From: Nitrospirota bacterium
Lineage (GTDB): Bacteria > Nitrospirota > Nitrospiria > Nitrospirales > UBA8639
Reading direction: 5' to 3'
NCBI GenBank assembly: GCA_027623995.1
Contig: JAQBUF010000034.1
Location: forward strand, 1-36,071
Length of the DNA: 36,071 nucleotides
Under the pieces are notes generated by a model, which saw only the letters and a list, made by a program, of their open reading frames with translations, searched no databases and was not told the DNA's origin. Of the stretch, positions 237 through 17,402 are shown in pieces (the stretch's first letter is position 1; every line of letters begins with the position of its first letter). The position numbers were made by a program, and so were the translations under genes.

Positions 237-821
237 TCATGAAGTCGCCTTCTCGATCAAAGCCTTAGCCGCCCTCTTCGCGATTTTGGCCGTTTTGGGA
301 TTTTGAGAGACTTGAGCTGTGACGGTCGCGCCTTCCAATAATAACGCCAATTCCTCTGCGAGCTCTTGTGGATTAGACGTTCCGACTTGTTCACAAAGCG
401 AAAGAATGTAGCCTTTCACTAATTTCTTATAATCCTTACAAATCTGACGAATGGGTGTATCGTTGTCGGAGTATTCCCCAATGGTGTTGATAAACAAGCA
501 CCCGTAGAAGTTACTTTGCTGAAACCATCGTTCTGCAAAATCAAAGATTGCTAACAACCGCGCTTGAGGGGTCTTTCCCCCACCTTCCACCCGCCGCATG
601 AATTCATTCCTGGCCATTCCGTCGTACTGACGCAACACCGCCAGCACCAATTCTTCCTTCGACCGGAAATGCGCGTACAAGGTTTTTTTGGTGACGCCGG
701 ACCGTTCCACAATCGCGTCAATCCCAGTCGCATGAATGCCATTCTTTCCGAATAATTCCAGCGCCGTCTGAATGAGTACCTCCCGTTTAGAGGAACCACC
801 TCTTTTTCGATTTCCTTCCAT
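237..821 (-). CDS. TetR/AcrR family transcriptional regulator
   Basis: A 194-residue protein with the usual TetR length and layout. The N-terminal helix-turn-helix is clear at about residues 14-58: a TALELFGKNGIHATGIDAI helix pair, then SGVTKKTLYAHFRSKEELV, where TLYAHF is the family's recognition-helix signature. The C-terminal ligand domain (about 70-194) is all helical with no recognisable ligand class. The ATG at 821 is used; a TTG lies directly before it at 824, and AGAAGG just upstream can serve as ribosome site. It is divergent from the YHS/P460 cluster, and the shared 236-nt spacer holds a near-perfect palindrome at 997-1016, so it probably represses that cluster. Control of its own gene is possible but not shown. 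Confidence 0.9.
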   Translation of the reverse strand: MEGNRKRGGSSKREVLIQTALELFGKNGIHATGIDAIVERSGVTKKTLYAHFRSKEELVLAVLRQYDGMARNEFMRRVEGGGKTPQARLLAIFDFAERWFQQSNFYGCLFINTIGEYSDNDTPIRQICKDYKKLVKGYILSLCEQVGTSNPQELAEELALLLEGATVTAQVSQNPKTAKIAKRAAKALIEKATS

Positions 822-996
822 CAACCTTCTCGTTTACGAATTTAATTTTGAAATTTTCCTTCTACCGAATAACCACCCACAAAAAATCTACCATAAATAA
901 CCTTTCCTACCAAGCACTTGGATGATTTTGTCATTAAAGCAATAAAATTTTTCTTAGTTGTAACGAAATCAAACCTGGCCTGACTAACCTCCATAA

Positions 997-1016
997 AGTA
1001 TACAGATCGGTATACT
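997..1016. promoter_or_regulatory. Probable TetR operator
   Basis: A 20-bp inverted repeat with perfect 7-bp arms, AGTATAC and GTATACT, around a six-base centre AGATCG. It is self-complementary at 18 of 20 positions. The right arm contains TATACT, which could be the -10 box of the downstream YHS gene, whose start is 41 nt away, although no convincing -35 lies at the right distance. Size, symmetry and position between a tetR gene and a divergent cluster are typical of TetR operators. Confidence 0.65.
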
Positions 1017-1057
1017 AAAAAATATTCACCATTTACTCATCACAAAGGAGATTTATC

Positions 1058-1519
1058 ATGAACATGAGGAAAACAGTTTTAGGTTCTCTGTTCGCGTTGT
1101 TCATGGCCGTCGTGGCCACACCAGCTTTGGCCGGAGATGTCACGCAAAGCACCCCTGGGATTAGTGGCTATGATCCCGTCGCTTACTTTACAGATGGCAA
1201 GGCAGTGAAGGGTTCCGGGTATCACGTGGCTGACTACAAAGGCGTCACGTATGCCTTTGCCAACAAAGACCACAAGGCGATGTTCCAAGCCAATCCGGAA
1301 AAGTACGTCCCGGCCTACGGAGGCTACTGCGCCTATGGCGTAGCCGTTGGGAAAAAGTTTGTGTCCGATCCGGAAGCTTGGAAGGTCGTCAACGGCACAC
1401 TGTATTTGAACCTGGATAAGGATATTCAAAGTAAATGGGCGAAGGATATTCCAGGGTATATCAAAAAGTCCGAGGCCAATTGGAAAGAAATCAAAGATAA
1501 GGCCGCGTCGGATTTATGA
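1058..1519 (+). CDS. Exported YHS-domain protein
   Basis: 153 residues. Residues 1-25 form a signal peptide ending in TPALA, so the mature protein begins near Gly26 and should be periplasmic. The YHS domain covers about 36-105: SGYDPVAYFTDGKAVKG, then YAFANKDHKAMFQANPEKYVPAYGGYCAYGVA with a single cysteine at 91. YHS domains are small modules often found with metal-transport and redox proteins; the free-standing exported form has no settled biochemical role. The ATG at 1058 follows AAAGGAG at 1044-1050. It is the first gene after the putative operator and heads the run of exported proteins to 3619. A 78-nt gap with a GC-rich hairpin separates it from the cytochrome P460 gene. Confidence 0.88.
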   Translation: MNMRKTVLGSLFALFMAVVATPALAGDVTQSTPGISGYDPVAYFTDGKAVKGSGYHVADYKGVTYAFANKDHKAMFQANPEKYVPAYGGYCAYGVAVGKKFVSDPEAWKVVNGTLYLNLDKDIQSKWAKDIPGYIKKSEANWKEIKDKAASDL

Positions 1520-1531
1520 GAAAAGAGGGTG

Positions 1532-1560
1532 AGGCCCGTCACCCGCTACATGGCGGGCCT
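1532..1560 (+). terminator. GC-rich hairpin after the YHS gene, possible attenuator
   Basis: Seven-base arms AGGCCCG and CGGGCCT enclose a 15-base loop, 12 nt after the YHS stop. There is no downstream T-run, so it is more likely an RNA-stabilising or attenuating structure than a full terminator. It would set YHS expression apart from that of the following genes. Confidence 0.3.
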
Positions 1561-1597
1561 TACCCGAATTTCCACCGACATCGTTAAAGGGGAAACC

Positions 1598-2194
1598 ATG
1601 AAACTGATCACCATCATCTCAACGGGACTCATGCTCATTCTGGCTAGCTGGACAGGATGGGCCATGATCAACGAGGACACCCCGTTTGCCCAAAACGTGA
1701 ATCCCGAAAACGGAGCAATTAGCGTTCCCGGCGATTACAGGGAATGGCCGACACTCGGTACTTGGGCACATGCCAAAGTAGAGGGAAGCCCTGGGTTACA
1801 AGAATACCACGTCGTGTATACGCATCCTGAGACGATCAAGTATTACCAGAAAAAGGGGAAATTTCCCGATGGTGCAGTGTTAGTCAAAGAACTACTGAAT
1901 ACTGAAACCATGGCCATGACCACGGGCCCGGCCGTAGGGCATGCCACTACGGTGAAAGGCTGGTTTGTCCTAGTTAGGGACACCAAAGGCCGATTCCAAG
2001 CATCAAGTTTGTGGGGGGATGGCTGGGGATGGTCACTGTTTAATTCAGACGATCCCCATCACACCGTGTCTAAAAATTACAAGACCGATTGCATTCCTTG
2101 TCACACGCCTGCCCGAGATCTGGCCAGGAAAAGTGCGATCGACGAAGATAAGTGGATTTACACGTTCGGATATCCCGTGCTGCAAAGGGAATAA
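1598..2194 (+). CDS. Periplasmic cytochrome P460 family protein
   Basis: 198 residues from the ATG at 1598, which has AAAGGGG upstream and begins a clean signal peptide (MKLITIISTG...SWTGWA). The frame is open back to a GTG at 1529, but that would put 23 non-hydrophobic residues before the signal. The fold signature is good: YHVVYTHPETIKYYQKKGKFPDGAVLVKE (about 68-96), WGDGWGWSLF, then the c-type haem site CIPCH (Cys165, Cys168, His169) and a final KWIYTFGYPVL. P460 enzymes carry one haem c cross-linked to a lysine and oxidise hydroxylamine or NO in ammonia oxidisers and methanotrophs. Which lysine would cross-link here cannot be assigned without alignment. In a nitrite oxidiser it could detoxify hydroxylamine or NO; that is inference. 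Confidence 0.85.
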   Translation: MKLITIISTGLMLILASWTGWAMINEDTPFAQNVNPENGAISVPGDYREWPTLGTWAHAKVEGSPGLQEYHVVYTHPETIKYYQKKGKFPDGAVLVKELLNTETMAMTTGPAVGHATTVKGWFVLVRDTKGRFQASSLWGDGWGWSLFNSDDPHHTVSKNYKTDCIPCHTPARDLARKSAIDEDKWIYTFGYPVLQRE

Positions 2195-2224
2195 CCCCTA
2201 GACAACAAAAAAGGAGGAAAGGTC

Positions 2225-2617
2225 ATGTTGAATAGCAAAACCATCTGTATCGCATTTGGGTCCGTCTTTGTATTGGTTGGACTCTTGGGATTCATTCCCA
2301 ATCCTATCGTGTCATCTGAGGGCATGTTTGAAACGAATGTCCTACACAATTTCGTACACCTCTTAACAGGCGCCGCGTTTCGTTTCGGGAGCGTGGTTTT
2401 GGACGGAAAAGAAAATCTGACCCTCAAGGCCATCACCGTTGCCTATTTTGGCGTGGCCCTGCTGGGGTTTTTTACCGAAGGCAACATGCTCTTAGGCATG
2501 GTGCACATTAACGAAGCTGACCGATGGCTCCACCTGGGTCTGGCGATGGCCATGGTTGTGTCCACCATTGGGGCGTCTCAGCTATCAACTCAATTGGTGG
2601 CAAGTAGTCACGCGTGA
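2225..2617 (+). CDS. DUF4383-like four-helix membrane protein
   Basis: 130 residues with about four hydrophobic segments: near 7-27, 42-58, 68-90 and 100-122. The pattern of a first helix ending GLLGFIPNPI, then NVLHNFVHLLTGAAFRFG, a third helix AYFGVALLGFF, and HLGLAMAM near the end, is that of DUF4383 membrane proteins. Histidines in the LHNFVHLL helix and in DRWLHLG are conserved-looking, but no function is established. The start is secure: AAGGAGG at 2211-2217 and ATG at 2225. It begins 30 nt after the P460 stop and 49 nt before the next gene's start, so co-transcription is likely. All evidence here points to an inner-membrane member of the redox cluster. Confidence 0.72.
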   Translation: MLNSKTICIAFGSVFVLVGLLGFIPNPIVSSEGMFETNVLHNFVHLLTGAAFRFGSVVLDGKENLTLKAITVAYFGVALLGFFTEGNMLLGMVHINEADRWLHLGLAMAMVVSTIGASQLSTQLVASSHA

Positions 2618-2666
2618 TCACACATTCACTATCAATCATCAATTCATTTCAACAAGGAGAAGTATC

Positions 2667-3272
2667 ATGAACACATTCACCAAATCGTTCCTCACTCTCA
2701 CATTAGCCAGCGCGGTGTTGGTCGGTTGCATGACGGCCAATGGCCCGGCAACTGCCGAACAGAGTATGGGGCAAGCCCACATGACCAAGACCCGCATGAC
2801 GAAAGAAGAAGCAGCTGCGCCCAAGCTCAACGACTTGGAGATCGCACACATTGCTTACACGGCAGGTGCCATTGATATCCGATATGCGCATCTGGCCTTG
2901 GCTCTTTCCGAAGATCCCGAAGTTCTAAATTTTGCCGAACTGATGATCCGTGACCACACGGCTGTGAATAACAAAGCTCTGGCATTGGTCCAGAAACTCC
3001 AAATCACGCCACAAGACAACGCGATGAGCCAACAACTCAGCCAACAAGCTCAACAAATTCGAGAAGAATTGTCTCAGCTTCGAGGAAAAGAACTGGCGAA
3101 ACGCTATGCCGCGAATGAATTGGGATACCACCAGACCGTGAACAACGTGGTGGAGAACACCTTCATCCCGACTGCGCAAAACCACGAACTCAAAGCGCTT
3201 CTCACGGCCGCCCTACAAACCTTCAAGGTACATGAGGGCCATGCGGAAGCCATGAATAAGAAAGTGATGTAA
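2667..3272 (+). CDS. DUF4142 (ferritin-like) lipoprotein
   Basis: 201 residues from the ATG at 2667, preceded by AAGGAGA. The frame extends upstream to 2556, but that part overlaps the DUF4383 gene and lacks a signal. Residues 1-20 are a lipoprotein signal ending in the lipobox LVGC, with Cys21 as lipid anchor. The mature part is helical. It carries the DUF4142 pattern: NDLEIAHIAYTAGAIDIRYAHLAL, DPEVLNFAELMIRDHTAVNNKALALVQKL, and a last helix LQTFKVHEGHAEAMNKKV. Family members resemble four-helix ferritin-like bundles and are commonly exported, with no defined reaction. Acid and histidine residues (H36-type IAHI, RDHT, HEGHAE) could bind metal. The cupredoxin gene starts 2 nt after its stop. 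Confidence 0.85.
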   Translation: MNTFTKSFLTLTLASAVLVGCMTANGPATAEQSMGQAHMTKTRMTKEEAAAPKLNDLEIAHIAYTAGAIDIRYAHLALALSEDPEVLNFAELMIRDHTAVNNKALALVQKLQITPQDNAMSQQLSQQAQQIREELSQLRGKELAKRYAANELGYHQTVNNVVENTFIPTAQNHELKALLTAALQTFKVHEGHAEAMNKKVM

Positions 3273-3274
3273 GC

Positions 3275-3619
3275 ATGAATGGGGAACCAGTCCTCATGCG
3301 GTTCATCGTTGGGTTGATCGCGCTAGGAATCTTTAGTGGGGAGGCCGTGGCGCAAACGGCCTCCCTCCCACAGCGACACGTCGTTCACATCGAAGCCTTT
3401 GCGTTTCAACCCCCACAGATCATCGTTTCACCGGGAGACACGATTGTGTGGGTCAACCAAGATATTGTGCCCCACTTCATCAGCATTGCCGAAGGCCAAT
3501 GGCAATCACCGATCATAGAGGAAGGCCAGTCATGGGAAATGGTGGTGGATCAGACGGGCAGCCATGCCTACATCTGCGTGTTTCACCCCAAGATGATGGG
3601 AGCATTCGCCACCAATTAA
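3275..3619 (+). CDS. Exported plastocyanin/amicyanin-like cupredoxin
   Basis: 114 residues from ATG 3275, two bases after the DUF4142 stop; a second ATG at 3296 (Met8) starts the signal peptide MRFIVGLIALGIF...AVAQ directly and may be the real start. The mature domain has the type 1 copper ligand set: His67 in DIVPHFIS, then Cys101, His104 and Met107 in CVFHPKMMG. The C-x2-H-x2-M spacing is that of amicyanin rather than the longer plant plastocyanin loop. The core strand IEAFAFQPPQIIVSPGDTIVWVN is typical. It should be a small periplasmic blue-copper electron carrier. As a partner for cytochrome P460 in the same cluster it is attractive, but that is only inferred from position. Confidence 0.85.
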   Translation: MNGEPVLMRFIVGLIALGIFSGEAVAQTASLPQRHVVHIEAFAFQPPQIIVSPGDTIVWVNQDIVPHFISIAEGQWQSPIIEEGQSWEMVVDQTGSHAYICVFHPKMMGAFATN

Positions 3620-3647: not shown

Positions 3648-4241
3648 ATGAAGAGGAAATTTTCTCTACTCCTTCAAGAAGTGAAAGCATGCAATCTCTG
3701 TCAATCCGTGCTTCCCCTCCGACCACGCCCAGTTCTCCAACTTCATCCTAAGGCTTCCATTCTTATCGCTGGACAGGCTCCTGGACGAAAAGTTCATGAA
3801 ACCGGCATACCCTTTGATGATCCGAGTGGAGATCGACTTCGGGAATGGATGGGCATCCATCGGGACACCTTTTATGATGCTCGGAAAATTGCAATTCTTC
3901 CCATGGGTTTTTGCTATCCAGGAACCGGGAAATCGGGAGATCTCCCTCCCCGTCCCGAATGTGCTGCAACCTGGCGAGCTCAGCTATTAGCGCATTTACT
4001 CAACATCAAGCTCATCCTCGTGATTGGCCAATATGCGCAGGACTATCACCTGCACGATTCTCCCTATACCAACCTCACCGCAACCGTCAAAGGCTGGAAG
4101 CATTTTTGGCCTGAACGCCTTCCCCTGCCACATCCCAGTCCACGAAATAATATGTGGCTAAAACGCAATCCCTGGTTTACCACAGACCTCCTCCCTGTTC
4201 TCAGGGAACACGTTCAGACAGTATTACGGATCAGCTCCTGA
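3648..4241 (+). CDS. Uracil-DNA glycosylase family protein, possible Fe-S type
   Basis: 197 residues; ATG 3648 with AAGGAG upstream, 28 nt after the cupredoxin. The UDG superfamily motifs are present: motif 1 GQAPGRKVHETGIPFDDPSG (42-61) and motif 2 HPSPRN (162-167). Four cysteines, Cys15, Cys18, Cys89 and Cys105, are spaced C-x2-C-x70-C-x15-C, which resembles the 4Fe-4S ligand pattern of family 4 glycosylases. It would excise damaged bases, probably uracil, in the cytoplasm. The subfamily is not one of the well-studied ones, so substrate is uncertain. It is the only evident cytoplasmic protein after the exported cluster and may be read through from it. Confidence 0.72.
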   Translation: MKRKFSLLLQEVKACNLCQSVLPLRPRPVLQLHPKASILIAGQAPGRKVHETGIPFDDPSGDRLREWMGIHRDTFYDARKIAILPMGFCYPGTGKSGDLPPRPECAATWRAQLLAHLLNIKLILVIGQYAQDYHLHDSPYTNLTATVKGWKHFWPERLPLPHPSPRNNMWLKRNPWFTTDLLPVLREHVQTVLRISS

Positions 4242-5171: not shown

Positions 5172-5246
5172 TGGAGCGGGTGAAGAGATTCGAACTCTCG
5201 ACCAACGGCTTGGGAAGCCGATGCGCTACCACTGCGCTACACCCGC
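5172..5246 (-). tRNA. tRNA-Gly (CCC)
   Basis: Read on the minus strand, 75 nt fold into a full cloverleaf. The acceptor stem is GCGGGTG/CACCCGC, the D arm GCGC-AGTGGTA-GCGC, the anticodon loop TTCCCAA (anticodon CCC), and the T arm GAGAG-TTCGAAT-CTCTT. The discriminator T is followed by an encoded CCA. The outermost anticodon-stem pair is a T-T mismatch. It is isolated, with no other tRNA beside it. Confidence 0.95.
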
Positions 5247-17326: not shown

Positions 17327-17402
17327 GCCGAGGTAGCTCAGTTGGCAGAGCACAGCCCTGAAAAGGCTGGTGTCGACAGTTCGATTCTGTCCCTCGGCAC
17401 CA
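17327..17402 (+). tRNA. tRNA-Phe (GAA)
   Basis: 76 nt with a complete cloverleaf: acceptor GCCGAGG/CCTCGGC, D arm GCTC-AGTTGGCA-GAGC, anticodon arm CAGCC-CTGAAAA-GGCTG (anticodon GAA), variable GTGTC, T arm GACAG-TTCGATT-CTGTC. Discriminator A and CCA are encoded. The 185 nt after it hold no gene. Confidence 0.96.

Follow-up and report, generated by a model that had tools for sequence, protein, structure and literature searches.

An acid-less cytochrome P460 in a TetR-linked cluster of exported proteins from a Nitrospirales bacterium

Gene content of the locus

The stretch of DNA analysed here (positions 1 to 36,071 of contig JAQBUF010000034.1, Nitrospirota assembly GCA_027623995.1; 36,071 nucleotides, hereafter the window) carries near its beginning a gene for a TetR-family regulator and, divergent from it, a run of genes for exported or membrane proteins, among them a cytochrome P460. 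For this module we computed the gene families, their recurrent linkage in other genomes, an operator-like site, the missing carboxylate in the P460 haem pocket and the grouping of such P460 proteins in a single clade.

The TetR gene (237-824, minus strand) is recognised by PF00440 (63 bits) and PF16925. The genes on the plus strand encode an exported member of the YHS-domain (seleno)protein family (1058-1519; NF041384 YHS_seleno_dom, 147.6 bits against a cut-off of 70), the P460 protein (1598-2194; PF16694, 85.4 bits against 27), a DUF4383 membrane protein (2225-2617; PF14325), a DUF4142 lipoprotein with the lipobox LVGC (2667-3272; PF13628) and a small exported, amicyanin-like type-1 copper protein, or cupredoxin (3275-3619; PF00127). 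A gene for a protein of the uracil-DNA glycosylase (UDG) superfamily, 3IKB subgroup, follows 28 nucleotides 3' of the cupredoxin gene (3648-4241, plus strand; PF03167). These profile matches confirm an earlier interpretation of the window made without database searches (the sequence-only reading), which had placed five genes for exported or membrane proteins and a divergent TetR gene at these positions; the lipobox, the CIPCH haem site and the copper ligands that it named are all present. The spacings of 78, 30, 49 and 2 nucleotides from the YHS gene to the cupredoxin gene hold for the starts as taken. For P460 this is the ATG at 1598 and not the GTG at 1529, as the signal peptide starts at 1598 and so does the portion that can be aligned, and for the cupredoxin an alternative start is possible at the ATG at 3296.

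The host genome comprises 3.13 Mb, is 99.7% complete and contains a single P460 gene. Its contig C75 carries the gene for a long protein of the DMSO-reductase type, similar in size to NxrA, and for that reason the host is probably a nitrite oxidiser. NXR was also considered as a discriminator between carriers and non-carriers of the module and was rejected: DMSO-reductase-type matches are found in all of the 147 Nitrospirales genomes used below, none of them above the curated cut-off.

Recurrence of the module genes in other genomes

Linkage and operator sites were counted in 147 Nitrospirales genomes with the window's own copies counted in; related genomes in these counts are not independent, and many loci come from metagenome-assembled genomes (MAGs). 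The full five-gene order is found in one other genome (G101, locus L065), which belongs to another family and carries the genes on a single strand, without the TetR gene and without the operator described below. The strongly conserved unit is TetR-YHS-P460, not the whole five-gene run, and it recurs as a core in Nitrospirales and Nitrospinota. Thus the co-occurrence outside the host genome that the sequence-only reading had made its own test does exist, and the parts of its five-gene unit recur; the unit as it was drawn needs two corrections, since outside the host its exact order was seen in G101 alone, where TetR is lacking, and the run extends to the UDG-like gene.

P460 proteins of the acid-less type occur in 34 of the 147 genomes and close YHS relatives likewise in 34, with both present in 25 (Fisher p 1e-13, kinship ignored). 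For 17 of 38 close YHS copies a P460 gene lies within 1 kb, and five of six close DUF4383 copies are found within 1 kb of a YHS gene. DUF4142 adjoins the cupredoxin in all five close copies, always on a P460-bearing contig. Because the homologues repeatedly adjoin each other in other genomes, the cluster is beyond chance. The cupredoxin itself is never found within 1 kb of P460 (0/5 close copies), and the suggestion that it is the electron acceptor of P460 is therefore weak, its conserved neighbour being DUF4142.

The UDG-like gene is probably a sixth member of the module, since six of its ten close copies (counting that of the window) are no more than 2.2 kb away from module genes. It also adjoins the module in several Nitrospinota loci. 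A second, broken copy was seen in one Nitrospirales genome (G042, C146:9666-9988).

Outside these counts, loci were compared in a set which contains duplicates from two collections; open reading frames were passed through a codon-usage gene filter before neighbours were clustered, and neighbour genes were named by eye from their sequences. Among the best 80 loci, P460 homologues of at least 59% identity come only from Nitrospirales, Nitrospinota (titled Nitrospinaceae, Nitrospina or Nitrospinia) and one Candidatus Nitrotoga MAG, and the next tier of these 80 has less than 50% identity over most of the protein. The Nitrotoga MAG (L082) contains a Nitrospirales-like P460 with MsrA- and MsrB-like neighbours, for which transfer and mis-binning are both possible. 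In two more distant loci, titled Gemmataceae bacterium and "bacterium", a YHS gene stands beside paired P460 genes, and a Woeseiaceae locus has a TetR-YHS pair close to its P460 genes.

The TetR regulator and its predicted operator

The gap between the TetR and YHS genes contains the palindrome AGTATACAGATCGGTATACT (997-1016, without strand), 41 nucleotides 5' of the YHS start. Its halves AGTATAC and GTATACT stand around AGATCG, and the TATACT at its right end is similar to a -10 box. The palindrome is absent from all shuffles of the window; matches to consensus promoters and terminators are no commoner in the window than in shuffles. The prediction as a TetR operator rests on this pattern and on its conservation upstream of YHS and P460 genes. 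The operator core ATACMGATCNGTATA gives 22 distinct sites in the 147 genomes, of which 20 are located 38-117 bp upstream of a YHS or P460 gene, and the reversed pattern, used as control, gives none. In two genomes, G001 and G014, about 36 kb separate the YHS gene from the P460 gene, and an operator site is present at both. The clustering of the sites upstream of these two genes, even when they are so far apart, supports a small TetR regulon.

In Nitrospinota and Pseudomonadota the sites are mostly too diverged for the exact pattern and were scored by a matrix. Most Nitrospinota loci contain a recognisable, though diverged, site in the corresponding gap, as do loci of Woeseiaceae, Minwuiaceae and other Alphaproteobacteria; some of these sites score weakly (L091, L147). 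The host genome has one exact operator site, and its regulon therefore looks local. Elsewhere the host genome has another palindromic site, which differs from the core at two positions (G000:C36:7110-7125).

The TetR protein reaches none of the NCBIfam equivalog cut-offs. Two of its cysteines, 109 and 129 in a frame of 195 amino acids, are invariant in 29 homologues, which would permit thiol sensing; the protein may act in this way. The cysteine-sensing regulator NemR has the TetR fold, a palindromic site in a divergent promoter and conserved cysteines in common with it. However, the similarity to NemR is only distant (4yze, E 3e-7), and sensing by the window's TetR is a candidate property. 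Taken together, the regulatory unit is well supported and the picture of exported proteins forming a unit under TetR control, which for that reason is probably inducible, already drawn in the sequence-only reading, gains from these comparisons. The chemistry of the unit is much less well supported.

The haem pocket of the P460 protein

The predicted fold of the P460 protein matches 2je2 with a Z score of 14.6 over 143 aligned residues (root mean square deviation 2.8). The CxxCH motif for haem c attachment, here CIPCH (2090-2104, plus strand), is invariant in 28 aligned sequences, and so is Lys97 (codon 1886-1888, plus strand), which aligns with Lys70 of the Nitrosomonas europaea protein NeP460, the predicted position of the haem cross-link. 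Phe123 (codon 1964-1966, plus strand) occupies the place of the catalytic carboxylate in the alignment, where NeP460 has Glu96, McP460 of Methylococcus capsulatus Asp102 and NsP460 of Nitrosomonas sp. AL212 Ala131. By the presence of a distal-pocket carboxylate, which distinguishes the hydroxylamine-oxidising P460 proteins, the window's protein falls outside that group.

The phenylalanine is not a peculiarity of this genome. In a quick tree without bootstrap the 90 sequences with Phe form one side of a branch (SH-aLRT 97) and the acid-type sequences lie outside; the octapeptide LWGDGWGW is invariant in the Phe clade. Pseudomonadota, Planctomycetota and some others often have a Phe-type and an acid-type gene side by side, and the Phe-type one is usually downstream (28 of 32 pairs). 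As the acid-type proteins of these pairs have their Glu or Asp in the column of the Phe, they provide an internal check on the alignment. Such pairs were recorded at L032, L035 and L098-L148, with a few Nitrospirales loci among them.

P460 proteins depend on the carboxylate to oxidise hydroxylamine: NsP460, with its Ala, is inactive, and the activity is restored by exchange of this Ala for Glu but not for Gln, Leu or Asp (PMC11928373). Since Phe replaces the carboxylate and the published acid-less P460 proteins are inactive, the window's P460 probably does not oxidise hydroxylamine and would have a job different from that suggested by its name. The hydroxylamine oxidation proposed in the sequence-only reading is accordingly not supported, given the haem pocket of the whole clade.

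Acid-less P460 proteins were described as "halfway house" proteins whose functions are yet to be resolved, with one case presented (PMC11928373), and P460 genes have been noted in one group of nitrite oxidisers, Nitrobacter (PMC12213059). The haem family is a known one, but its acid-less clade, for which a regulatory and gene context can now be defined, is apparently undescribed. Among the open-access papers searched, none names as many as two of the terms DUF4142, cytochrome P460, YHS domain and DUF4383, in line with the impression in the sequence-only reading that the combination is not a familiar described system.

NeP460 and McP460 share with the window's protein the fold, CxxCH and the position of the cross-link lysine, and differ by their distal Glu or Asp and their hydroxylamine oxidation. 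Closer in its pocket is NsP460, with the lysine, no carboxylate, a non-polar pocket and a His at the position of NeP460 Arg44 in common; it differs in having Ala and an unresolved role, whereas the window's protein has Phe and belongs to a broad clade with LWGDGWGW, a gene context and a putative operator. Cytochromes c'-beta have the superfamily fold (Z 11.6-12.4) and a hydrophobic pocket, and gas binding has been proposed for them; they are without the cross-link lysine, which the window's protein has, so that it falls outside this group as well.

The YHS, cupredoxin and UDG-like proteins

The YHS protein has a single cysteine, residue 91, which is invariant in 31 homologues and hints at thiol chemistry. 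Some members of family NF041384 contain selenocysteine, in a GxU motif (PMC13188914). No significant relatives of the YHS and DUF4142 proteins were found by sequence search of the PDB.

The cupredoxin has the complete set of type-1 copper ligands His, Cys, His and Met (VPH...C..HP.M), as aligned to amicyanin, and is similar to amicyanins in the PDB (E 5e-11). It stays below the curated amicyanin cut-off (TIGR02657, 40.3 against 110.2 bits). Likewise, the UDG-like protein does not reach the cut-off for type-4 uracil-DNA glycosylases (TIGR00758, 24 against 125.3 bits), and it is nearest to the uncharacterised 3ikb (E 3.5e-50).

Possible function of the module

We tentatively favour, with somewhat less than even confidence, an envelope defence of nitrite-oxidising bacteria that is inducible and directed against reactive nitrogen or oxygen species, with P460 serving as a ligand-binding haem protein. 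The action of the repressor and its inducer, the ligand, the electron path and the role of the UDG-like protein are what we infer here. Bound to the conserved palindrome, which would lie over the YHS promoter, TetR would repress the genes behind it. A reactive small molecule reaching TetR, perhaps by way of its two invariant cysteines, would release it from the DNA. The exported products would then be the YHS protein with its one cysteine, the haem protein with its Phe pocket, a small membrane protein and the lipoprotein-cupredoxin pair, with the UDG-superfamily protein after them. Outside the cytoplasm P460 would most likely bind, and perhaps convert, nitric oxide (NO) or a reactive nitrogen or oxygen species related to it, and the other proteins of the module would handle electrons or damage. 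Ferric NsP460, which is acid-less too, binds NO with a dissociation constant of about 8 uM (PMC11928373). A role against reactive nitrogen, as proposed in the sequence-only reading, appears plausible.

Several points weigh against this explanation. Many Nitrospira-type genomes (f3) have a P460 gene without a TetR gene or an operator of this kind. The invariant Asp141 of LWGDGWGW might substitute for the lost carboxylate. The UDG-like protein belongs to the uncharacterised 3IKB subgroup, and to give it a role in DNA repair would be a guess. Finally, the stress-type neighbours may mark oxidants or electrophiles and not reactive nitrogen; they fit the class of envelope stress, yet nitrogen, oxygen and electrophile stress cannot be told apart from them.

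A more specific proposal is that a cross-linked P460 clade, having lost the hydroxylamine oxidase chemistry, became a TetR-controlled, inducible sink or converter for NO or its relatives, which is kept in several phyla of nitrite oxidisers and elsewhere works beside a neighbouring acid-type P460. This is possible, if doubtful.

The last of the points above leads to the alternative that has to be taken most seriously, although we consider it unlikely: a defence against oxidants or electrophiles such as peroxide, hypochlorite or quinones with no special tie to nitrogen, with TetR acting as a thiol switch and P460 as a haem protein of a peroxidase-like or structural kind. In other bacteria the neighbours of Phe-type P460 genes include those for MsrA, MsrB, a Dyp-type peroxidase, peroxiredoxin-like and AhpD-like proteins and, as a further candidate by eye, an azoreductase-like protein, and the two invariant cysteines of TetR would suit a thiol switch. 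However, the closest P460 proteins among the best 80 loci (at least 59% identity) all come from nitrite-oxidiser lineages. Nitrous species deaminate DNA, and a UDG-like neighbour would suit a defence against these. A peroxidase-like role is also at odds with NeP460, in which the cross-link to lysine suppresses such activity (PMC11928373).

That P460 oxidises hydroxylamine, or NO, and passes the electrons to the cupredoxin is improbable. The fold, the cross-link lysine and the haem motif are retained and a cupredoxin with complete copper ligands is encoded close by, but the carboxylate is replaced by Phe throughout the clade, acid-less P460 is inactive in published assays and nitrite oxidisers do not transform hydroxylamine (PMC11928373); moreover, the conserved partner of the cupredoxin is DUF4142.

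An envelope handling of copper or another metal, with the YHS protein, the cupredoxin and DUF4142 as metal carriers, is very improbable. Some YHS domains are tied to metal binding, and the type-1 copper site of the cupredoxin would agree with such a role, but no copper transporter or regulator was seen among the recurrent neighbours inspected, the regulator is of the TetR type and conservation is higher for the haem protein. There is equally little chance that two or three independent small operons without a single function became neighbours by accident: YHS-P460, YHS-DUF4383 and DUF4142-cupredoxin do occur apart in several genomes, but the same five-gene order is present in G101 of another family, and the five close DUF4142-cupredoxin pairs all share a contig with P460.

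A P460 annotation in nitrite oxidisers is not to be taken as hydroxylamine oxidation or nitrous oxide production. The function of acid-less P460 proteins becomes testable, as a broad clade now has gene partners, a predicted regulator with its site, and hosts.

Two minor observations remain. In four Nitrospira-type loci (L036, L039, L041 and L063) SelO-like, MsrA-like and cytochrome c-like genes adjoin the Phe-type P460 gene. The window furthermore contains two tRNA genes, at 5175-5246 and 17327-17399.

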